In this document: piece by piece, positions 4,378 to 29,819 of the stretch | Layout: each line of letters starts with the position of its first letter | How positions within the stretch are numbered: the first letter of the stretch is position 1 | Assembly (NCBI GenBank): GCA_017964255.1 | Contig: JAGCSI010000073.1 | Span: forward strand, 1 to 36,897 | Direction of reading: 5' to 3' | Length of the DNA stretch: 36,897 bases | Source: Bacteroidales bacterium | GTDB lineage: Bacteria; Bacteroidota; Bacteroidia; Bacteroidales; WCHB1-69 | The notes under the pieces: generated by a model | Database searches by the model: none | What the model saw: the letters and a program-made list of their open reading frames with translations, nothing else | What the model was told of the DNA's origin: nothing | Program-made: the position numbers and the translations under genes

Positions 4378-5829
4378 CTAATCGCGTTTGAAGATATCGC
4401 GTGTATAAACCTTTGCCTTCACATCGTCCAAACAAGCGTCATAACGGTTGGCGATAATCGCCTGCGATTGGGCTTTGAATTTTTCTAAGTCATTGACCAC
4501 CAAGCTGCCGAAGAACATTGTGCCATCCTCAAGCGTAGGCTCGTAAATAATGACCTGGGCCCCCTTGGCTTTCACACGTTTCATCACCCCCTGGATAGAC
4601 GACTGGCGGAAATTGTCGCTATTGCTCTTCATCGTCAGTCGATATACCCCAATGGTCGGAACTTGGGATTCTGAATTTTGAATTTTGAATTGATTATTCT
4701 CGCTATAGGCGTAATAACCCGCCATCTTCAGCACCTGGTCGGCGATGAAATCCTTGCGGGTACGGTTGCTCTCGACAATGGCGCTCATCATGTTCTGCGG
4801 CACATCGGCATAGTTGGCCAGCAGCTGCTTGGTATCCTTGGGAAGGCAGTAACCGCCATAGCCGAAGCTCGGATTATTGTAGTGCGCACCGATACGCGGG
4901 TCGAGGCTCACTCCCTCAATGATATCCTGGGTGCTCAGACCCTTCATCTCGGCGTAGGTATCCAGCTCATTGAAGTAGCTGACACGCAAAGCCAGATAGG
5001 TGTTGGCGAAGAGTTTCACCGCCTCGGCTTCTTTCATGCCCATGAAGAGAACGGGGATTCCTTTGGGGGTTAGTTGAGAGTTGATAGATGATAGATTATA
5101 GTTAGAGGGGTGAGAAGGGGAGGGGGTGAGAGGGTGAGAAGAGGATGAATCGATTACAGGATTACAGGATGATGGATTTTGAGGGATGGGGGAATCTTTG
5201 GAGGGGCCGAGGGCACCTTCGACAAGGAGGGAGGCAAAGGTGTGGGCACGTTCGGTGAGCCAGTTCAGGTCGGTGAGCTGTTGGATGGCTTCATTTTCCT
5301 CCCGGTATTCCTCGCCCATCATTTTGGGAATACCCACAATGATACGGCTGGGATAGAGGTTGTCGTACAAGGCCTTGCTCTCGCGCAAAAATTCGGGAGA
5401 GAACAGCAGGTTGAATTTCTTGGTACCCTGAGCGGCATACTTCACGTAAAGGCTACGGGTATAGCCCACGGGAATGGTACTCTTGATGACCATCACCGCA
5501 TCGGGATTGACACTCAATACCAGGTCGATGACATCCTCGATATGGTGCGTGTCGAAGAAATTTTTCTGCGGGTCGTAGTTGGTGGGAGCGGCAATCACCA
5601 CAAAATCGGCATCACGATAGGCAGCGGCGCCATCGAGGGTGGCCGTCAAGTCCAGCTCTTTTTCCGCCAAATATTTCTCGATATACTCATCCTGGATGGG
5701 AGACTTTTTGTTATTGATCATCTCCACTTTTTCGGGAATCACATCCACAGCGGTGACGTGATTGTGTTGTGCCAACAACGTGGCAATGCTTAGACCGACA
5801 TAGCCGGTTCCGGCGACTGCGATTTTCAT
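4378..5829 (-). CDS. ugd: UDP-glucose 6-dehydrogenase carrying in-frame repeat-derived insertions
   Basis: The enzyme oxidises UDP-glucose to UDP-glucuronate with NAD+, feeding acidic polysaccharide synthesis. The N-terminal NAD site GTGYVGLS is at residues 7-14, [11 protein letters not shown] near 114-124, FSPEFLRE at 143-150, and the catalytic cysteine is C328 in [14 protein letters not shown]. The sequence follows E. coli Ugd closely but is 483 residues against about 388. Three expansions explain the excess: residues about 167-190 of ordinary composition, about 207-256 rich in Ser/Pro/Asn, and about 371-391. The second and third are translations of the same low-complexity repeats found between genes here (5069-5180 and 4667-4695 in DNA). 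Catalytic motifs are intact, so it may still be active, but this is untested. Family confidence is high; UDP-glucose rather than a close relative is likely from overall similarity. Confidence 0.92.
4667..4695. repeat. GAATTTTGAATTTTGAATT-type repeat inside ugd
   Basis: An AT-rich string with the period TGAATTT lies in frame within ugd and encodes roughly residues 379-387 (NQFKIQNSE). A very similar string occurs just upstream of the acetyltransferase start at 26186-26210, outside coding sequence. Confidence 0.75.
5069..5180. repeat. Composite intergenic-type repeat inserted within ugd
   Basis: Three modules follow one another: a GTTGATAGATGATAG-like string (5070-5105), GTGAGAGG/GTGAGAAG strings (5108-5142), and GATTACAGGATTACAGGAT (about 5153-5171). 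All three module types recur outside genes at 5840-5995, 6421-6490, 7300-7327, 7787-7912, 10052-10460 and 11790-12120. Here they stay open in the ugd frame and encode a Ser/Pro-rich loop. Confidence 0.85.
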
Positions 5830-5839
5830 GTTTTTACGG

Positions 5840-5995
5840 GGTTAAAAGGTTAGAGGGTTAGAGGGTGAGAGGGTGAGAAGGGTTAGGATGTAGGGCTGTC
5901 ACATTGTGGCAGCCGTGTGTTGAACCTGATGTGCCCATGACGGTTACACGGTGAGGAGGTGAGAGGGTGAGAGGGTGAGGAGGTTAGAGAAATTT
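5840..5995. repeat. Mosaic repeat block between ugd and the first four-helix-bundle gene
   Basis: GTTAGAGG/GTGAGAGG strings (5845-5885) are followed by TAGGGCTGTCACATTGTGGC, one copy of the 25-nt GCCGTGTG-type unit, CCCATGACGGTTACACGGTG, and a second GTGAGAGG string to about 5988. The same module order occurs in the long arms at 10052-10609 and 11647-12120, so this is a shortened copy of that element. Confidence 0.8.
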
Positions 5996-7786: not shown

Positions 7787-7912
7787 CCCCTCTCTTCACC
7801 CTCTCAACCCTTAATCCCTTCATCCTATAATCCTTTCATCTCGTAATCCCTTCATCCTGTAATCCTGTAATCCCGTAATCCTGTAATCCAATAATCAACT
7901 AACCAATCATCA
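7787..7912. repeat. CTGTAATCC / CCTTCATCC repeat array
   Basis: After a short CCTCTC string come about ten imperfect 8-10 nt units of the TAATCC type, fully occupying the space between the stop of the four-helix-bundle gene and the stop of the UpxY-like gene at 7919. The orientation is inverted relative to 7300-7327. Confidence 0.8.
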
Positions 7913-9236: not shown

Positions 9237-9256
9237 CATTTTTTAACGACATTCCC

Positions 9257-10051
9257 ATGCGACAATACCTTGACCTTTTACAGCGGATTTTAGACGAAGG
9301 AAGTTTTAAGAGTGACCGCACTGGCACCGGCACCTACAGTGTCTTCGGCCATCAGATGCGCTTCAACCTAGCCGACGGCTTTCCCGTGCTGACCACCAAA
9401 AAGCTGCACCTGCGCTCCATCATTTACGAATTGCTCTGGTTTCTGAAAGGCGACACCAACATCAAGTACCTAAAAGACAACGGGGTATCCATTTGGGACG
9501 AGTGGGCCGACGAGCACGGTGACCTGGGACCCGTCTATGGCAAGCAGTGGCGCTCGTGGGCGACAGCCGACGGCCGCAGTGTGGACCAGATTTCAGAGCT
9601 CATCGAGCAGATCAAGACCAACCCCGACTCGCGCCGGCTGATGGTGTGCGCCTGGAATGTGGGCGAGGTGCCCCAGATGGCGCTGCCGCCCTGCCACGTG
9701 CTGTTCCAGTTCTACGTCAATAACGGGGAGATCTCCTGTCAGCTTTACCAGCGCAGCGCGGATGTCTTTTTGGGCGTGCCCTTCAACATCGCCTCCTACT
9801 CGCTGTTACTCATGATGATAGCCCAAGTGTGCGGCCTCAAAGCCAAGGAGTTTGTGCACACCTTCGGCGATGCCCACATCTATGCCAACCATGTGGAACA
9901 GGCCAAGTTGCAGCTCACCCGCACCCCGAAGGCGTTACCGACGATGCGCATCAACCCCGAGGTGAAGTCGATTTTTGATTTCAAGTATGAGGATTTTGTT
10001 TTGGAGAATTATAATCCGGAGCCGCATATTAAAGCTGAGGTTGCTGTGTAA
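9257..10051 (+). CDS. thyA: Thymidylate synthase
   Basis: It methylates dUMP to dTMP using 5,10-methylenetetrahydrofolate, producing dihydrofolate. From the ATG at 9257 the protein is 264 residues, exactly the length of E. coli ThyA, and it aligns from the first residue ([15 protein letters not shown]). The catalytic cysteine is C146 in [10 protein letters not shown]. The folate/dUMP segments [47 protein letters not shown] and GDAHIYANH are all present. The frame is open upstream to 9173, but those 28 residues do not fit the family and the -7 box lies inside them. No dihydrofolate reductase gene follows, although folA often does elsewhere. The TAA stop abuts a long repeat arm. Confidence 0.97.
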
Positions 10052-10609
10052 GAGGTTAGAAGGTGAGAAGGTGAGAGGGTGAGAGGGTGAGAGGGTGAGA
10101 GGGCTTGTTTGAGTTAATAGTTAATAGATAAAAGATAATAGTTAAGAGTTGTTTGATAGAGTAGTAGGGTTGTTATATTGTAGGGCTATCACATTGTGGC
10201 AGCCGTGTGATGAACCTGTTGCGGCTGCCGTGTGATGAACCCGTTGTGGCTGCCGTGTGTTGAACCCGTTGTGGCTGCCGTGTGATGAACCTGTTGTGGC
10301 TGCCGTGATACGACAGCCCTACATGATGTGCCCATGACGGTTACACGGTGAGAGGGTGAGAAGGTTAGAAGGTGAGGAGGTGAGAAGGTGAGAGGGATAT
10401 ACGGTTATGCGGGTATACGGTTAGAGGGTGAGAAGGTGAGAGGGTTAAGGGATTTAGAAGGTTGAAGGAGTACGCAGGCCGTAGGTCTGCATGGCTCGGT
10501 AGCCCAGGGCATCGCCCTGGGGAAATGATGGAAACGGGTGCATGTTCGCGGCACGGGGTGCACTTGCCCTGATGATGACACTTTCCTGCCGCGAAAGGGA
10601 GGCATGAGG
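10052..10609. repeat. Left arm of a long inverted repeat around the hydroxyacid dehydrogenase gene
   Basis: Order of parts: GTGAGAGG strings, CTTGTTTGAGTTAATAG, AATAGATAAAAGATAATAG, a TAGGGCTATCACATTGTGGC block, four full and one partial 25-nt units, GATACGACAGCCCTACATGA, CCCATGACGGTTACACGG, further GTGAGAGG strings, then a reverse-oriented REP-like element ending TGCCGCGAAAGGGAGGC. The arm starts directly at the thyA stop codon. The same parts occur in reverse orientation at 11647-12120. No gene is seen here; the open frames it contains are translations of the repeats. Confidence 0.92.
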
Positions 10610-10655
10610 ACAAGATGAGCAAAATCCCTCATCCTGTAATCCTGTAATCAATTAA

Positions 10656-11594
10656 TCATCTCATAGATCTTATCTTCCCGACGGCAATTTCCGCGTGGCG
10701 TTTTTCGGCTTCGAGGGTCTGGCCACCCACATGGGGCGTGAGGAGCACGCGGTCGGTTTCCGCCAATTCGCGTAATACCGCATCCCACTCGTCCTTTGGG
10801 GGAATTTGCAAACGTGAGCTTTCATATTCCAGCACATCGAAACAGGCATATTTGATTTTCCCTTCCTTGATGGCAGCAAGCACATCAGCCGTATTCACCG
10901 CCCAACCCCTGGAAGTATTGAGGAAGATAAAGGGATGTTTGATTTTCTGAATCAGATTTTTATTGATAAAATAATGATTTTCAGGAAGATAATTGATGTG
11001 CAAAGAAATCACATCACATTGCTCAAACAACTCTTCCAAAGTCACTGCTGTAGCGTTTTCATCCCCATAGTTCTGGCGATAGCGGTCGTAGCACAAAACC
11101 TTGCAGCCCAAGGCTTTCAGCAGTTTGGCAAAAGCCGGACCCGTATGTCCGTAGCCGATGATGCCCACGATGTGGGAAGCTAACTCGGTGCCTTTGTTTT
11201 TCTCACGCAGCCACTCGCCTTTACGGACCTCATCATTGGCCGTAACCACATGCCGCAAAGCGGTCAGCAAGAAGGTGAGGCACAGTTCCGCCACTGCATT
11301 GGCATTGCCCTCGGGCGTGCTCAGACAGCGTACCCCCTTGCTTTCAGCATACTGAGTATCAATATTTTCCATACCAGAGCCGATACGCACCACAAATCGC
11401 AGATGTGGTTTGGAATCGATGGCAGCGGCATCCACCGCAAAACGGCTGCGGATAATCAGTCCATCGTATTCATCAGGCAATACTACGAAACTATCGTGGG
11501 TTAGTTCCTTATTCGTCTCGCAGTGGAAGCCATGGGCCTCCAGCTGCTCCGCAAGGAGAGTGTGAACTCTGTCAACAATCAATATCTTATGCAT
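10656..11594 (-). CDS. D-isomer-specific 2-hydroxyacid dehydrogenase (phosphoglycerate-dehydrogenase-like)
   Basis: This NAD-dependent oxidoreductase of the D-3-phosphoglycerate dehydrogenase group has 312 residues from the ATG at 11594. The Rossmann motif GIIGYGHTG has glycines at 147, 149 and 152, followed by the NAD-selecting acid D170. Catalytic residues fit the family: R229 in NTSRGWAVN, E256 in FDVLEYES, and H288 in LTPHVGGQT. It lacks the C-terminal ACT domain of long SerA proteins, and no serC is adjacent, so the substrate is uncertain. A frame extending to a TTG at 11612 is less likely, because that TTG is part of the -7 box. The gene is alone between two inverted repeat arms, and both orientations would leave it intact. 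Confidence 0.9.
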   Translation of the reverse strand: MHKILIVDRVHTLLAEQLEAHGFHCETNKELTHDSFVVLPDEYDGLIIRSRFAVDAAAIDSKPHLRFVVRIGSGMENIDTQYAESKGVRCLSTPEGNANAVAELCLTFLLTALRHVVTANDEVRKGEWLREKNKGTELASHIVGIIGYGHTGPAFAKLLKALGCKVLCYDRYRQNYGDENATAVTLEELFEQCDVISLHINYLPENHYFINKNLIQKIKHPFIFLNTSRGWAVNTADVLAAIKEGKIKYACFDVLEYESSRLQIPPKDEWDAVLRELAETDRVLLTPHVGGQTLEAEKRHAEIAVGKIRSMR

Positions 11595-11609
11595 ACAGAC
11601 TATTTTTTG

Positions 11610-11617
11610 CAAAAATA
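11610..11617 (-). promoter_or_regulatory. -7 box of the hydroxyacid dehydrogenase gene
   Basis: On the minus strand TATTTTTG lies 15 nt before the ATG at 11594, giving a very short leader. It lies inside the repeat-bounded cassette, so the gene carries its own promoter. Confidence 0.6.
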
Positions 11618-11646
11618 CGATTTTTTTCCGTGATACGACTCCGTAA

Positions 11647-12120
11647 CCTCACGCCTCCCTTTCGCGGCAGCGTGATTCCATCATCTGGGCACGTGTATCC
11701 CGTGCCGCGAACACACACACGTTTCCATCATTTCCCCAGGGCGATGCCCTGGGCTACCGAGCCATGCAGACCTACGGCCTGCATACTCCTTCAACCTTCT
11801 AAACCCCTTAACCCTCTCACCTTCTCACCCTCTAACCGTATAACCGTGTACCCCTCTCACCTCCTCACCTTCTCACCTCCTTACCGTGTAACCGTCATGG
11901 GCACATCAGGTAGCATCATGTAGGGCTGTCGTATCACGGCAGCCGCAACAGGTTCATCACACGGCTGCCACAACAGGTTCATCACACGGCTGCCACAATG
12001 TAACAGCCCTACAATATAACAACCCTACTACTCTATCAAACAACTCTTAACTATTATCTTTTATCTATTAACTTAACTCAAACAAGCCCTCTCACCTTCT
12101 AACCCTCTAACCCTCTCACC
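11647..12120. repeat. Right arm of the long inverted repeat
   Basis: This is the reverse complement of the left arm with the same order of parts but only two full 25-nt units and other small indels. It carries a REP-like element at 11656-11790 with TTCGCGGCA and TGCCGCGAA arms. The outer end overlaps the last codons of xseA (stop at 12099-12101), while the inner end lies 53 nt from the dehydrogenase ATG. No gene is seen here apart from that overlap. Confidence 0.92.
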
Positions 12121-13499
12121 TTACTCACCACCACACCATCTACCACCTCCGTCACCAGCACATCCCCTTCCTTGGCATCAGCGGGATTGGTGAGGGCTTT
12201 GCCGTTGAGGCGGGTGATGGAATAGCCGCGCTTCAGCACGTTGTGCGGATGCAGCAAACGGATTTTCTCTTCCAGATTCTCCAACTCTTTATTTCTGATG
12301 ATAAACAGCTGTTTTGAAGACAGTTGTATCATTTTATATAGGTTATCCATCACATTTTTCTCCTGTGAGAGACGGTGCGTGGCACTGAGCTGGCAGCGCT
12401 GCTCCAGCTGTTCAATCTGATGTTTCTCACGAGTTAGCGAGCGGGTGGCGGTGAGGAGATAATCCTGTTCAATTTGCGCTACCCGCTGTTTTTCCTTGGT
12501 CAGCAGCTGGGTGGCCAGCAGCAGGTAGTTGTGCTCTATCTGTTCAATCTGATGTTTTTCGCGGGTGAACAGCGTTTCCACATAGCGGATAATCTTATCC
12601 TGAGCCTCTTCCACCTGGATGGCGAAGTTATGGAACTGCTGAATCAGAAAATAGGCCACCTCGGTAGGGGTGATTTTGTTGGCATACGACACCATATCGG
12701 TGACACTTTCATTAGTGGAATGCCCTATGCCAGAGATAATTGGCAACGGAAAAGTGGCCACTTTATGCGACAAACTGTAATCATCGTAGCAGCTCAAGCC
12801 CACATCGCCGCCGCCGCCACGGATGATGACCACACAGTCAAAATCCTTTTGCCGTTTGGCGATGGCCTCCAGCTGCGCCGTGATGGTAGTAATCGCTTTG
12901 TCACCCTGCAAAATGGACGGAAACAACTCACACTCAAAGCAATAGTTCCAGTTGTTCTCTTGCAGGGTCACCATAAAATCGCTGTAGCCCTTGCTGGTTT
13001 CGACTGAGATAACGGCAATGCGCTTGGGCAGCAAAGGGAGCTCCAATTGCTTGTTGGCCCCGAAAACGCCTTCCTTCTTCAGGCGGGCGATGACGGCCAT
13101 CTTGTTCTTCATCAGCTCTCCCAAGGTATAGCTCGGCTCAATGTCCTGGATATAAAGGGCCAGGCCGTACTGCGGACTGAACTCGATGGTGGCGAGGCAC
13201 AGGATGCTGATGTTGTCTTTGAGCGGTTCGCCGGTGATTTTCAGGAACTTCGCGTTAATCTCCTCCACCTGCGTTTTCCAGATGACCGCCCGCATCTGCG
13301 TCACAATCTTGTCGCCCTCTTTCTCCACCAGTTCCGGATAGCAGTGCCCCGAGTGGGGGTACTTGTTCAGCCGTATAATCTCCGCCTTGACATAGTAAGC
13401 ACGGGTATAGGTCTTGTTGATCACAGCTTTGATGCTGCCAGTGAGCTCCGACAAACTATACACCGGGCGGTCGTTAAAAGTCTCGCGTTGTTTTTCCAT
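12099..13499 (-). CDS. xseA: Exodeoxyribonuclease VII large subunit
   Basis: This is the catalytic subunit of a single-strand-specific exonuclease working with XseB. In 466 residues it shows an N-terminal OB-fold region (about 12-125), the nuclease core with VVIIRGGGGDVGL (223-235) and GIGHSTNESVTD (257-268), a long coiled-coil (about 285-415), and a C-terminal segment with LKRGYSITRLNGKALTNPADAKEGD. The coiled-coil holds three consecutive 22-residue repeats (312-333, 334-355, 356-377), each starting T-[RK]-E-K. The final residues VRGLEG and the stop codon are encoded by the GTGAGAGGGTTAGAGG repeat of the adjoining arm, so the native C-terminus may have been replaced. No xseB is adjacent. Confidence 0.94.
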   Translation of the reverse strand: MEKQRETFNDRPVYSLSELTGSIKAVINKTYTRAYYVKAEIIRLNKYPHSGHCYPELVEKEGDKIVTQMRAVIWKTQVEEINAKFLKITGEPLKDNISILCLATIEFSPQYGLALYIQDIEPSYTLGELMKNKMAVIARLKKEGVFGANKQLELPLLPKRIAVISVETSKGYSDFMVTLQENNWNYCFECELFPSILQGDKAITTITAQLEAIAKRQKDFDCVVIIRGGGGDVGLSCYDDYSLSHKVATFPLPIISGIGHSTNESVTDMVSYANKITPTEVAYFLIQQFHNFAIQVEEAQDKIIRYVETLFTREKHQIEQIEHNYLLLATQLLTKEKQRVAQIEQDYLLTATRSLTREKHQIEQLEQRCQLSATHRLSQEKNVMDNLYKMIQLSSKQLFIIRNKELENLEEKIRLLHPHNVLKRGYSITRLNGKALTNPADAKEGDVLVTEVVDGVVVSKVRGLEG

Positions 13500-13531: not shown

Positions 13532-14737
13532 TTAATACAAACAGCCAAACGCCCATAACGGAATTTTCCTGTTGGTGGCGTTATCAATATCATCCGCAGC
13601 CACATACGCATTTTTTTCTTTACTAACCTGGGCAAAACCCTTCTCTTTTCCTCCTACTTCGACTACAATTTTACCATCAATACGAAAATCTCCGCTTTTC
13701 ACTCCGCCATACTCCACCCTATGTCCTGCCGATATCAACTGATTACAAAAGAAAGTCTCACGTACTGTACCAATGGAAGGTTTCTCCGTGGAAAGGGTGT
13801 ATAACAAATTGGGGTTATCCAACAGTATTTTGTCCGGTTTCTGTAAATCTCCAATTGTACTGATATCTGTAAACAATCTGCAAATCAGAGCCGCCTCTTC
13901 CAGATTACGAATATATTTAAGGGTTGTGGCACGCTGAATGCCAATATTCTTGGACAATTTGCTTATATCCACCTCATAGGGGACCATAGAGGAAATCACT
14001 TGTAACAACGCCTTGATTTTTCTCGTGTTCCCCACCTCCAGACTGCGATATTTTGTCAACTCCACATCAATGATATAATTCACTACATTCTCCACACTGT
14101 TTTGATAAACTTTCTTGTTTTCAAAGTAATAAGGATAATATCCCTCTTTAAGATAATGGGAGAAATATTCCAATGGATGACATTTTTCTTTCACCATTGA
14201 ACAATATGCATTCGGTGCCTCCATCAAGGTTTTGAGATTGACGGCTTCTACTTGAATGCCTTTTTCAAACCTAAGATATTCGCGAAACGAAAGTCCCGGC
14301 ATTTTGTACTCCGTCATCCTTCTCGACAAGTCAGACTTTCCATCATTGATTTGTAACAATGACGAACCACTCACCACAATACGCAAATCCTTGTGCAAAT
14401 CATAAATTTCTTTAATCTCACTACTCCAATTCTCATATTTGTGTATTTCATCAATAAAAAGATGCTTTCCTCCCATCTTATAGAATTGATCGGCAGTATC
14501 CACCAGACTGTGAGTGGTGAAATAGCTGGTGTCCGCGGAGAAATAAAGCACATGTCTGTCATCTGCGGCATAATGCGACCTGATATATTGCAACATCATT
14601 GTGGATTTTCCCACACCTTTCGGTCCCTTGATAGCAATAAGCCGAATATCCCAATCTATCTGCTCCATGGTACTTCTTACGTATTCCATTGGCACATTGG
14701 CAACATACTCGTCATGCCTTTCAAATAATTTATCCAT
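13532..14737 (-). CDS. AAA-type ATPase with DUF4143-like C-terminus
   Basis: This 401-residue protein belongs to the common prokaryotic AAA_14/DUF4143 group. Walker A is GPKGVGKST at residues 38-46. Walker B is LFIDEIHKY with D96 and E97. A sensor-like VVSGSSLL follows, then SRRMTEYKMPGLSFREYL, a phrase very typical of the family. The C-terminal part (about 200-400) contains the winged-helix-like and nuclease-like region with FRIDGKIVVEVGGK. The cellular role is unknown; such genes are often scattered as singletons. It has its own -7 box and is the lone gene between xseA and the GT4 operon. Codons and composition look somewhat more AT-rich than the neighbours, which may reflect transfer, judged by eye only. 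Confidence 0.9.
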   Translation of the reverse strand: MDKLFERHDEYVANVPMEYVRSTMEQIDWDIRLIAIKGPKGVGKSTMMLQYIRSHYAADDRHVLYFSADTSYFTTHSLVDTADQFYKMGGKHLFIDEIHKYENWSSEIKEIYDLHKDLRIVVSGSSLLQINDGKSDLSRRMTEYKMPGLSFREYLRFEKGIQVEAVNLKTLMEAPNAYCSMVKEKCHPLEYFSHYLKEGYYPYYFENKKVYQNSVENVVNYIIDVELTKYRSLEVGNTRKIKALLQVISSMVPYEVDISKLSKNIGIQRATTLKYIRNLEEAALICRLFTDISTIGDLQKPDKILLDNPNLLYTLSTEKPSIGTVRETFFCNQLISAGHRVEYGGVKSGDFRIDGKIVVEVGGKEKGFAQVSKEKNAYVAADDIDNATNRKIPLWAFGCLY

Positions 14738-18345: not shown

Positions 18346-18419
18346 CGTAAAAATATCAGAAATTGTACACATTTTTGAAATTTTCTGCAAGTTTCCTGCC
18401 TGCGCGGAAGGGTGGAACT

Positions 18420-18836
18420 GTGACATATATATCACATCTCGGCGAAGCCGTTCCTCATTAGCCTCGCAGAGGCGACATCTCAATAACCCCAGACGTGAGT
18501 CTGGGGTGGGAACGGCATCATCTCCTCCCCCTCTTCCCCTCACACGCATCATCAAGACTCACCACCTCCATCTGCCAGTCCCACACGCATTGCCAGGACG
18601 GGATGAGGCCCATAGGGCCGGCCAGATTACAGACAGGGGTGAAACCCCTGGGACAGACAGTCCTCCACATACATCACCATGGCAGGGCAAGGCCCGTAGG
18701 GCCGGCCAGACTACAGACAGGGGTGAAACCCCTGGGACAGACAGGGGCAAAGCCCCTGGGACAGGACGGCACATATACATCCTCGCGGCACGGGGAACCC
18801 ACGCCCTGAAGACGACACATGACTGCCGCGAAAGTA
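18420..18836. repeat. Cluster of GC-rich hairpin repeats
   Basis: No real gene is seen in 18346-18865. The cluster contains CCCCAGAC-GTGA-GTCTGGGG (about 18486-18505), two direct copies of a unit with GGGCCGGCCAGA...CAGGGGTGAAACCCCTG (about 18614-18655 and 18697-18738), an extra CAGGGGCAAAGCCCCTG (18744-18760), and a terminal CGCGGCACGGGG...TGCCGCGAA pair (18783-18832) that matches the arms of the REP-like element. The long plus-strand open frame across this area is antisense to the GT39 gene for most of its length. Confidence 0.75.
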
Positions 18837-20519: not shown

Positions 20520-20640
20520 CAATTAGCAAATTAGTTTTTTTCAATTAGCAAATTGGTTAATTAGTAAATTAGCAAATTATTATTGCGGTGAGCAGTGAGC
20601 GGTGGGCGGTGGGCATGGAGATGTGAGGGGTGAGGACGTT
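20520..20640. repeat. AATTAGCAAATTAG strings and GAGCAGTGAGCGGTGGGCGG string
   Basis: Four to five AATTAGCAAATT/AATTAGTAAATTAG units (20520-20578) are followed by GTGAGCAGTGAGCGGTGGGC-type units. The AT-rich units reappear in inverted orientation after mutS at 23385-23430. Confidence 0.75.
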
Positions 20641-23384: not shown

Positions 23385-23466
23385 AAAATCATTTGCTAAT
23401 TTGCTAATTAACTAATTTGCTAATTAAAAAATTGGCACATTAGCACATTGTCTCATTAGCACATTA
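23385..23466. repeat. CTAATTTGCTAATT strings and TTAGCACATTGTC repeat
   Basis: TTTGCTAATTTGCTAATTAAC units (to about 23428) invert those at 20520-20578. The following 36 nt (23431-23466) differ by about two bases from 29889-29924. The string ends at the TAA stop of the DPP IV gene. Confidence 0.8.
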
Positions 23467-28007: not shown

Positions 28008-28036
28008 CTGTCAACTGTCAATTATCAACTGTCAAC
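28008..28036. repeat. AACTGTCAATTATCAACTGTC string
   Basis: Four CTGTCAA/TATCAA units run into the stop codon of coaE. Confidence 0.7.
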
Positions 28037-28557
28037 TAATTACTAATCACCATATCCGCCCTCCTGCACTTCTCCTCCTGAGACATCTGCGCGTTGATAC
28101 GGTCGGTAATCTCCTTCTCCGTAAGGTTGGGGTTCCGTTTTTTGATACGTTCCAACCGCACTTCCATCGGGGCATCCACCACAATCACCATATCGAAGAA
28201 CTTCTCCATATCGTTTTCGTACACAATGGCGGATTCCAGCATCACCGACGGAGCCTTTTGATCCTCTGCCCACTCATCAAACATCTCCATCACTCTGGGA
28301 TGAATCATTTTATTGATAATTTCCCTTTTTTTGGGATCCTGGAACACACAGTGCGCCATCTTCTTGAAATCCAGTCTGCCTTCAGTGAAAACCTCAGTGC
28401 CGAAATAAGAACGGATGGTATCGACAATTTCCCTGTCTTCGTAGCATTTTTTGGCTTCCTCGTCCGCATAGAACACCGGAATCCCCATCTGCACAAACTT
28501 TTTGGAGATATAGGTCTTACCTGTTCCGATACCCCCCGTGATAGCTATTTTTTTCAT
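28036..28557 (-). CDS. coaE: Dephospho-CoA kinase, C-terminally shortened
   Basis: It phosphorylates dephospho-CoA in the last step of coenzyme A synthesis. It begins MKKIAITGGIGTGKTYISKKF with the P-loop GGIGTGKT at residues 8-15. YADEEAKKCY and IHPRVMEMFDEWAEDQKAPSVMLESAIVYENDME follow in the family order, then RIKKRNPNLTEKEITDRINAQMSQEEKCRRADMVISN. At 173 residues it is roughly 20-30 shorter than typical CoaE. The protein stops just after ADMVISN, where homologues continue with a Gly- or Asp-containing turn and a final helix. The stop lies at the edge of a CTGTCAA repeat string. Whether the truncated enzyme works is unknown, but CoaE is normally essential, so some activity is expected. Confidence 0.92.
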   Translation of the reverse strand: MKKIAITGGIGTGKTYISKKFVQMGIPVFYADEEAKKCYEDREIVDTIRSYFGTEVFTEGRLDFKKMAHCVFQDPKKREIINKMIHPRVMEMFDEWAEDQKAPSVMLESAIVYENDMEKFFDMVIVVDAPMEVRLERIKKRNPNLTEKEITDRINAQMSQEEKCRRADMVISN

Positions 28558-28995: not shown

Positions 28996-29328
28996 TTATT
29001 TTTGAGCGTTTTTGGCCTCGTTCTCATCCACAGCTACTGCGGCTTTCTCAATGGTGATCTTCACACCGTCAGCGATTTCGATAACGAAAACCTTTTCCTG
29101 AACATCCGTAATCTTGCCATGCAAACCACCAATCGTGATGATTTTGTCACCTTTGGACAATTTGCTTCTGTATTCCTCAATCTGTTTTTGTTTTTTCTGC
29201 TGAGGTCTGATCATGAAGAAGTAGAAAATCAAAAGCAGCAAAAGGATAAAAATCAAAGTCATTGATCCGCCACCCGCTCCCTGTCCGTTATCTGCCGGAG
29301 CCATTAATAAAAATAATAAGTTGTTCAT
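28996..29328 (-). CDS. yajC: YajC, preprotein translocase accessory subunit
   Basis: This 110-residue accessory subunit of the SecDF-YajC complex has one transmembrane helix (about residues 22-40) followed directly by the signature FYFFMIRPQQKKQKQIEEYRSKLSKGDKIITIGGLHGKI. The ATG at 29328 is chosen. The open frame reaches 29532, but the extra part overlaps the DUF1573 gene in another frame and does not fit the family. The gene lies 26 nt after the DUF1573 gene and 6 nt before the YbbR-like gene. Confidence 0.95.
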   Translation of the reverse strand: MNNLLFLLMAPADNGQGAGGGSMTLIFILLLLLIFYFFMIRPQQKKQKQIEEYRSKLSKGDKIITIGGLHGKITDVQEKVFVIEIADGVKITIEKAAVAVDENEAKNAQK

Positions 29329-29354
29329 TTTCAGTATTTTATATTGATAAATAA

Positions 29355-29819
29355 TTAAGGTTCCACTACTGTGGCTTTCAACCTGAGGGTGGTTTGCACC
29401 GGATAAGTATTGGCCGACACCACCACCATTTTGTTCACCTCGCCATGCTGGTTCTTCGAGTCGAAGGTCACCCCGATTTCTCCGGATTCTCCCGGTCTGA
29501 TGGGAGCCTGCGGAGGGGTTGAGGTGGTGCAACCGCAGGAAGAGCGCGCGCTGGAGATAATCAGGTTGGATTTGCCAGTATTCTTGAATTTGAAAGAATA
29601 GCTCAGTTTCTCTCCTTTGATGACCCGACCAAAATCGTATTCCAAGTTCTCAAATGTCAGCACCGGCATCTTTTCGGCATCCTTTTGGGACAAGCCCTCC
29701 GCCGTCATCGGGTTATGCACATCCGCAGTGGTAAAGCCCTCGGAGTTGTTCTTTTCCCCGCAGGCCGCCAACAGAAAGACTGTCACACATAAACCAATGA
29801 TAATCGATATTTTTCTCAT
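29355..29819 (-). CDS. DUF1573 lipoprotein
   Basis: This 154-residue lipoprotein has lipobox LLAAC with the lipidated Cys near residue 20. The body is the DUF1573 domain, an immunoglobulin-like beta sandwich: FENLEYDFGRVIKGEKLSYSFKFKNTGKSNLIISSARSSCGCTT (about 56-99) followed by PIRPGESGEIGVTFDSKNQHGEVNK. The SSCGCT motif is the strongest mark of the family. Function is unknown. It occupies the usual slot between nusB and yajC in Bacteroidota. Confidence 0.93.
   Translation of the reverse strand: MRKISIIIGLCVTVFLLAACGEKNNSEGFTTADVHNPMTAEGLSQKDAEKMPVLTFENLEYDFGRVIKGEKLSYSFKFKNTGKSNLIISSARSSCGCTTSTPPQAPIRPGESGEIGVTFDSKNQHGEVNKMVVVSANTYPVQTTLRLKATVVEP

Follow-up and report, generated by a model that had tools for sequence, protein, structure and literature searches.

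A single dehydrogenase gene between inverted intergenic arms occurs in both orientations among related Bacteroidales

Inversion between homologies on one chromosome has been described for the inversely oriented tuf genes of Salmonella, where, in the account given in PMC8262849, recombination homogenizes the two copies and a minority of events inverts the interval between them (up to a quarter of events, with 5 of 59 clones in a cassette test). Intergenic inverted repeats in Caenorhabditis keep their structure better than their sequence; arm conversion is one proposed cause, and the authors of that study favour selection for structure (PMC1803023). In invertons, as characterized in PMC5903667, a small segment between inverted repeats is found in both orientations, and the elements of REP/RAYT systems are short palindromes dispersed among intergenic regions (PMC3733652). 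In bacteria, GC skew is a frequent basis for inferring that a gene has changed orientation, according to PMC6220195.

Here we compare with these systems a locus in the window, which is the entire 36,897-nt contig C11 of a 2.5-Mb genome bin (151 contigs, 74% complete, 4.6% contaminated) from a group of uncultured gut bacteria. In this locus, a single gene for a D-2-hydroxyacid dehydrogenase (dhd) lies between long inverted arms. Related genomes of the genus are labelled G001–G008. C89 is a second contig in the same bin; because its thyA and xseA are ~90% identical to those of C11, it is probably from a co-binned relative, that is, contigs of two species probably share one bin.

As in the tuf system, the locus has inverted homologies on one chromosome. 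Those long enough for general recombination are found in C11 and C89, and are not found today in G003, G001 or G002; the interval occurs in both orientations between species (C89 and G003 carry it reversed, seven others do not). Unlike in the tuf system as PMC8262849 presents it, where the homologies are genes, the homologies in C11 are non-coding gaps around one gene, and arm sequence is replaced between species. The locus shares with the Caenorhabditis repeats an inverted structure that persists while the sequence differs between species; those repeats, as set out in PMC1803023, occur in an animal and between paralogous gene pairs, whereas here the host is a bacterium, the arms enclose an unrelated gene and they are absent in some relatives. 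As with invertons, a small segment between inverted repeats is found in both orientations. Unlike the invertons of PMC5903667, with sites of 10–20 nt, the dhd locus has long arms, no recombinase among the window proteins scanned, and a promoter-like box that is carried along with the gene. The arms differ by species; an inverted pair of REP-like elements is common to C11, C89 and G006, with G003 and G001 lacking the full pair. A recombination site may lie inside this REP-like pair; the window proteins scanned give no support for assigning the locus to the site-specific inversion systems.

The process is known, and the locus is a variant of it in its setting: the non-coding arms on either side of one gene differ in sequence by species. 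The Caenorhabditis repeats, in the form described in PMC1803023, are the nearest published parallel we found, and none of the best-ranked matches in the open-licence literature described a single gene inverting between intergenic arms in Bacteroidales. Inference from GC skew misses the event itself, whereas here the gene, both orientations, approximate breakpoints and inverted repeats are visible in close relatives.

Anatomy of the dhd locus

The locus lies between thyA and xseA and has the following features (window positions, strand, description):

9248..10051, plus: thyA, left neighbour (gene search; query start 9248, ATG 9257, stop 10049–10051)
10052..10609, plus: left arm, with 8-bp array, AT-rich stretch, 25-bp array, 8-bp array, palindrome and REP-like element (alignment, self-comparison)
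10194..10307, plus: 25-bp tandem array, 4.6 units (tandem-repeat listing)
10545..10595, plus: REP-like palindromic element on the 3′ side of dhd (motif search, folding, alignment)
10656..11594, minus: dhd, D-2-hydroxyacid dehydrogenase, 312 aa from ATG (Pfam, PF02826/PF00389)
11610..11617, minus: promoter-like box TATTTTTG, 15 bp upstream of the dhd ATG (sequence)
11647..12129, minus: right arm, the left-arm modules in unchanged order, inverted, overlapping the final xseA codons (alignment, self-comparison)
11661..11711, minus: REP-like palindromic element on the 5′ side of dhd, inverted relative to the first (motif search, folding, alignment)
11935..11998, minus: 25-bp tandem array, 2.6 units (tandem-repeat listing)
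12099..13499, minus: xseA, right neighbour (gene search; stop 12099–12101)
10546..11710, no strand: dhd block that is reversed in C89 relative to the window (for G003, window 10674–11710; nucleotide comparison)

The initial annotation had described a lone 2-hydroxyacid dehydrogenase gene between two arms that carry one series of modules in opposite orientation, the left arm starting at the thyA stop codon and the right arm overlapping that of xseA. This description holds: dhd, with its promoter-like box, is the only gene between the arms, and the arms are collinear inverted copies that reach both stop codons. Inward from each stop codon, the modules are an 8-bp array (GGTGAGAR), an AT-rich stretch, a 25-bp array and a second 8-bp array, followed at the inner end by a CCCAGGGC/GCCCTGGG palindrome and then a ~51-nt REP-like palindrome next to dhd. 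In self-comparison, 10062–10609 pairs inverted with 11647–12129 over 559 columns (79% identity with gaps counted, E 2.7e-151), and when the left arm is aligned with the reversed right arm, 444 of the 480 ungapped columns are identical (92.5%; alignment columns 22–588). Gaps in this alignment span 50, 16, 10, 8, 2 and 1 columns, those of 50, 16 and 8 being multiples of the internal 25-bp and 8-bp units. The long identical stretches that had also been reported are present (the longest exact run common to both arms is 69 nt), but the identity is patchy, with missing repeat units separating the matching stretches. The C-terminal residues of xseA in C11 are encoded by the 8-bp array of the right arm, and the last residues of xseA vary among the five species compared.

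Single arm modules recur scattered across the genome. In searches of this 74%-complete genome, with up to 40 candidates scored, the best match outside the arms covered 103 bp of the inner part (84%) and 43 bp of the outer part (93%), and no second full arm copy turned up. We rejected chance matching of dispersed modules as the source of a whole arm, because all modules recur in one order over ~550 bp and the candidates scored included no other complete arm. In 728,117 sampled bases from C11's genome and its relatives, the C11 arms are the longest inverted pair at 200–8,000 bp spacing, and this sample held no excess of inverted over direct repeat pairs (24 versus 27 rows, overlapping rows counted).

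The dhd product matched 24 NCBIfam models, each with a score under the cut-off. Its promoter-like box, a putative −7 element of the Bacteroidetes type, is conserved in C89, G003, G001 and G007 in the form TATTTTTG or TATCTTTG. Orthologues of dhd were found in 60 of 104 genomes of the family (E 1e-80), including the nine of C11's genus. Adjacency of thyA and dhd was absent at the 11 thyA loci checked in other genera of the family (L017–L027, flanks of up to 1.5 kb) and at eight more distant dhd loci (L106–L113).

Orientation of dhd and arm sequence among relatives

We compared the orientation states of dhd between species. thyA adjoins dhd in C11, C89, G001, G002, G003, G005, G007 and G008; the G006 contig ends before thyA, and dhd lies at another place in G004. 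xseA is next in line in C11, C89, G001, G002, G003 and G006, and is located elsewhere or more distantly in G005, G007 and G008. The gene has the minus orientation, toward thyA, in C11, G001, G002, G005, G007 and G008, and in G006 as judged by xseA. It has the plus orientation, and thus is reversed, in C89 and G003, or two of the nine loci whose orientation is readable against a neighbour. The minus orientation is probably ancestral, because the outgroups G002, G005, G007 and G008 and the sister G001 are all minus.

When C11 was compared with G003, C89, G001 and G006 (collinear blocks of at least 250 bp, E 1e-20), a single collinear gene block was reversed, that of dhd, in the comparisons with C89 and G003 and in neither of the others; comparisons of C89 with G003 and G001, and of G003 with G001, G006 and G008, agree on dhd. 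Short intergenic modules that match at non-corresponding places were excluded from the reversed blocks (for example, C11 18427–18687 with the xseA–dhd gap of G006). The thyA-side gap of C89 still matches the thyA side of G001 and its xseA-side edge matches the xseA side of G001, with the middle reversed. The C89 arms sit at or next to the inversion junctions, and since repeated modules lie on both sides, these breakpoints are approximate and not placed to the base.

The REP-like elements travel with dhd on inversion. The left end of the block in C11 matches the right end in C89 over 86 bp (86%), versus 65 bp (80%) for the C89 left end, and the C11 right end matches the left ends of C89 and G003 over 116 bp (81% and 86%, respectively). 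An inverted REP-like pair flanks dhd in C11, C89 and G006; the element is one-sided in G003, and one-sided with a truncated half in G001.

The initial annotation had called the locus a cassette and had raised the possibility of its inversion by homologous recombination between the arms. An inserted unit is not borne out: in the outgroups G002, G005, G007 and G008 dhd adjoins thyA without flanking arms, and insertion of a dhd cassette was rejected on this ground. It follows from the same adjacency that the arms probably arose later than the thyA–dhd arrangement. Inversion, in contrast, did emerge between relatives, in C89 and G003, with the arms as its putative cause.

In trees of thyA, dhd and xseA, the best tree splits C89 and G003 and requires a minimum of two changes, its inner forks being weakly supported, and an AU test weakly rejects a single clade of C89 and G003 (P = 0.032). 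This rejection is lost (P = 0.157) in a gene set that omits dhd and includes NusG-like and UDP-sugar dehydrogenase genes. C89 and G003 are collinear for ~9 kb upstream of thyA, and a sugar-phosphate isomerase/lactonase-type gene present on the thyA contig of C11, G001, G002, G005 and G008 is on neither the C89 nor the G003 contig. Two independent inversions, which we favoured at first, were dropped in view of the result from the wider gene set, the collinearity of C89 and G003 and this gene content. Because the wider gene set does not reject a clade of C89 and G003, we limit the claim to at least one inversion of dhd, with one or two compatible with the trees.

Self-comparison gave inverted arms of 163 bp at 97% in C89 (longest exact run 97 nt), plus a REP-like part at 81%, and in G006 arms of 196 bp (90%) together with shorter pieces of 78 bp (85%), 33 bp (91%) and 64 bp (75%). 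It gave no inverted arms in G003 or G002, nor in G001 beyond 22 bp; G003 thus has the plus orientation without an arm, its longest exact inverted run being 8 nt. The C11 arms match each other over 526 columns, and match the dhd gaps of other species over only 25–116 bp adjoining dhd; outside the REP-like part, the arms of C11 and C89 are unrelated. The C89 arms, which look recent, are 97% identical to each other versus 78–89% for overlapping segments between species. Matching within the G006 genome (85–90%, one piece 75%) is no better than some between-species matches. Judged from these alignments, C11 and C89 each own a matched arm pair, and G006 owns a third, less clearly homogenized. The outer module of the C11 arm is found in a different gap of G006 (120 bp, 90%) and an inner module in G003 beside xseA (82%); such matches trace the arm parts to a shared pool of intergenic modules.

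Recombination between intergenic repeats and its alternatives

We lean towards homologous recombination between the inverted intergenic repeats, by conversion and sometimes by crossover, as the process that flips dhd and keeps the arms alike. Under this mechanism, dhd and its promoter-like box would form a self-contained single-gene unit between two non-coding gaps, and the gaps would have become inverted copies of each other on which general homologous recombination acts. Non-crossover events would copy one arm onto the other, such that the arms stay alike, and occasional crossovers would flip the 1.17-kb unit. The matched arms and the reversed dhd agree with these two outcomes. Because the promoter-like box travels with dhd, flipping is probably little harmful, with either orientation tolerated, and no on/off switch is expected. 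We infer that homologous recombination is the agent, that the matching of the arms comes from conversion and that flipping continues today. If both states occur in one population, the locus would be a natural assay of conversion versus crossover between inverted intergenic repeats in Bacteroidales.

Several observations speak against this mechanism. G003 is reversed without arms, and C11 and G006 have arms and the ancestral orientation, so that arms and orientation are uncoupled; dispersed modules of the arm kinds are also present elsewhere. Nor does conversion alone explain the source of new arm sequences, given that the arms of C11 and C89 share only their REP-like part. Also on this side are the lack of an excess of inverted over direct pairs in the 728-kb sample, the imprecise breakpoints of C89, and arm matching within G006 that does not exceed some matches between species. 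A tentative extension, possible though we would not bet on it, is that the locus is a self-renewing flip site. Its inverted symmetry would be rebuilt repeatedly with different intergenic sequence in each species, gap being copied onto gap from inverted REP-like seeds, and the single gene would keep switching orientation with no recombinase and no fixed site. If true, this would give bacterial genomes a way to move single genes from one strand to the other.

The main rival to homologous recombination, which we consider unlikely, is that the arms are scars: an inversion by staggered breaks or template switching at short inverted REP-like elements would have duplicated breakpoint sequence in inverted form. 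C89 fits this account equally well, since its arm sequence is found in G001 on the thyA side only, and in C89 a near-identical copy (97%) lies on the other side along with the inversion. The inverted REP-like elements that flank dhd in C11, C89 and G006 could seed such an event. However, C11 and G006 fit less well, as the combination of arms and ancestral orientation would call for either an even count of inversions or copying that left the orientation unchanged, and the inversion in G003 has no arms to show for it.

It seems quite improbable that selection maintains the arms because they form a long RNA or DNA hairpin at which the thyA and xseA transcripts end or are stabilized. The arms do start at both stop codons and contain palindromes, but they are absent at the corresponding place in G003, G001 and G002, and no RNA family at the arms reached the Rfam gathering score, on which ground a known RNA element was rejected. 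A hairpin is less likely still for the dhd message, because the promoter-like box (11610–11617) lies inside the block, so that a transcript from there would contain the left arm only.

Highly improbable, too, is an artefact of assembly or binning in which the orientation of C11 or C89 was mischosen at repeats. The sequences are metagenome bins, C11 and C89 are probably two species in one bin, and the C89 arms contain a 97-nt exact run. However, the exact run in the C11 arms is at most 69 nt, inside ordinary short-read length, and G003 is reversed in another assembly without such a repeat; with no arm in G003, an assembly swap at repeats is unlikely to account for its reversal.

Small invertible segments between inverted repeats are common in gut Bacteroidales. 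A site-specific recombinase that flips dhd as a phase-variable switch is nevertheless scarcely credible, even though the orientation of dhd does vary: the promoter-like box travels with the gene, so off-switching is not expected; arm sequences differ between species; the sites of such systems are typically 10–20 nt and not 0.5-kb arms, as reported in PMC5903667; and the earlier statement that no recombinase gene is seen was borne out in a Pfam scan of 19 window proteins, a set without some of the smaller ORFs (such as 28036–28557 and 28996–29532), although one could be encoded elsewhere in the genome.

REP-like elements and other intergenic repeats

The palindrome TTCGCGGCA...TGCCGCGAA of the REP-like elements is dispersed, with 17 places and 33 strand hits in the 728,117 sampled bases; of 20 shuffles, 19 gave 0 hits and one gave 1 hit. 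Four copies folded as single strands had modest z-scores (−1.3 to −2.2). Like the REP/RAYT elements described in PMC3733652, these elements are short, palindromic, dispersed and intergenic, and the genome has one Y1_Tnp gene. Unlike in the REP/RAYT systems of that report, a conserved GTAG or CGTC tag was not seen by eye in nine aligned copies, for which the element ends are provisional, and the 3,333-base locus around the Y1_Tnp gene has no CGCGGCA/TGCCGCG core. REP/RAYT mobility was rejected as the cause because the dhd-flanking palindrome is missing from this locus, which contains the only Y1_Tnp match in the genome. At L138 (G000:C58 14415–14747), a Y1_Tnp (IS200-like) transposase gene has nearby CCCCACACTTACGTG repeats and is possibly part of a REP/RAYT pair of another family.

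Intergenic gaps also hold many degenerate 8-bp tandem arrays with several unrelated units (GGTGAGAR, ATTACAGG, TTAGCAAA), as well as 7-bp arrays (AGTTAAT, CTCATCG), the period being common to unrelated units; examples in the window are the gaps at 5108–5139, 5839–5988, 7794–7896, 20521–20579 and 23391–23466. Heptamer arrays (TAACTGA) have been described in five Bacteroidetes in PMC4679880. Two 80-bp direct copies (85%) with a AGGGGTGAAACCCCTGG palindrome lie at window 18581–18744, followed by a REP-like element at 18781. An AAA_14-type ATPase gene adjoins xseA (window 13532–14737), and the end of such a gene adjoins xseA in C89 too, with no matching block there in G003, G006 or G001.

A UDP-sugar dehydrogenase gene in G003 lies between inverted repeats of 106–135 columns at 82–88% (G003:C57 86581–86741 and 88138–88270), and shows no inversion relative to C11 or C89. 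Intergenic DNA in the genus turns over, with modules common to several gaps, right up to stop codons. Between related species, modules of 120–300 bp match at gaps that do not correspond, in either orientation, as though sequence were exchanged from gap to gap; such matches include window 18407–18687, G006:C24 21333–21457 (L135) and G003:C57 75844–76017 (L136).
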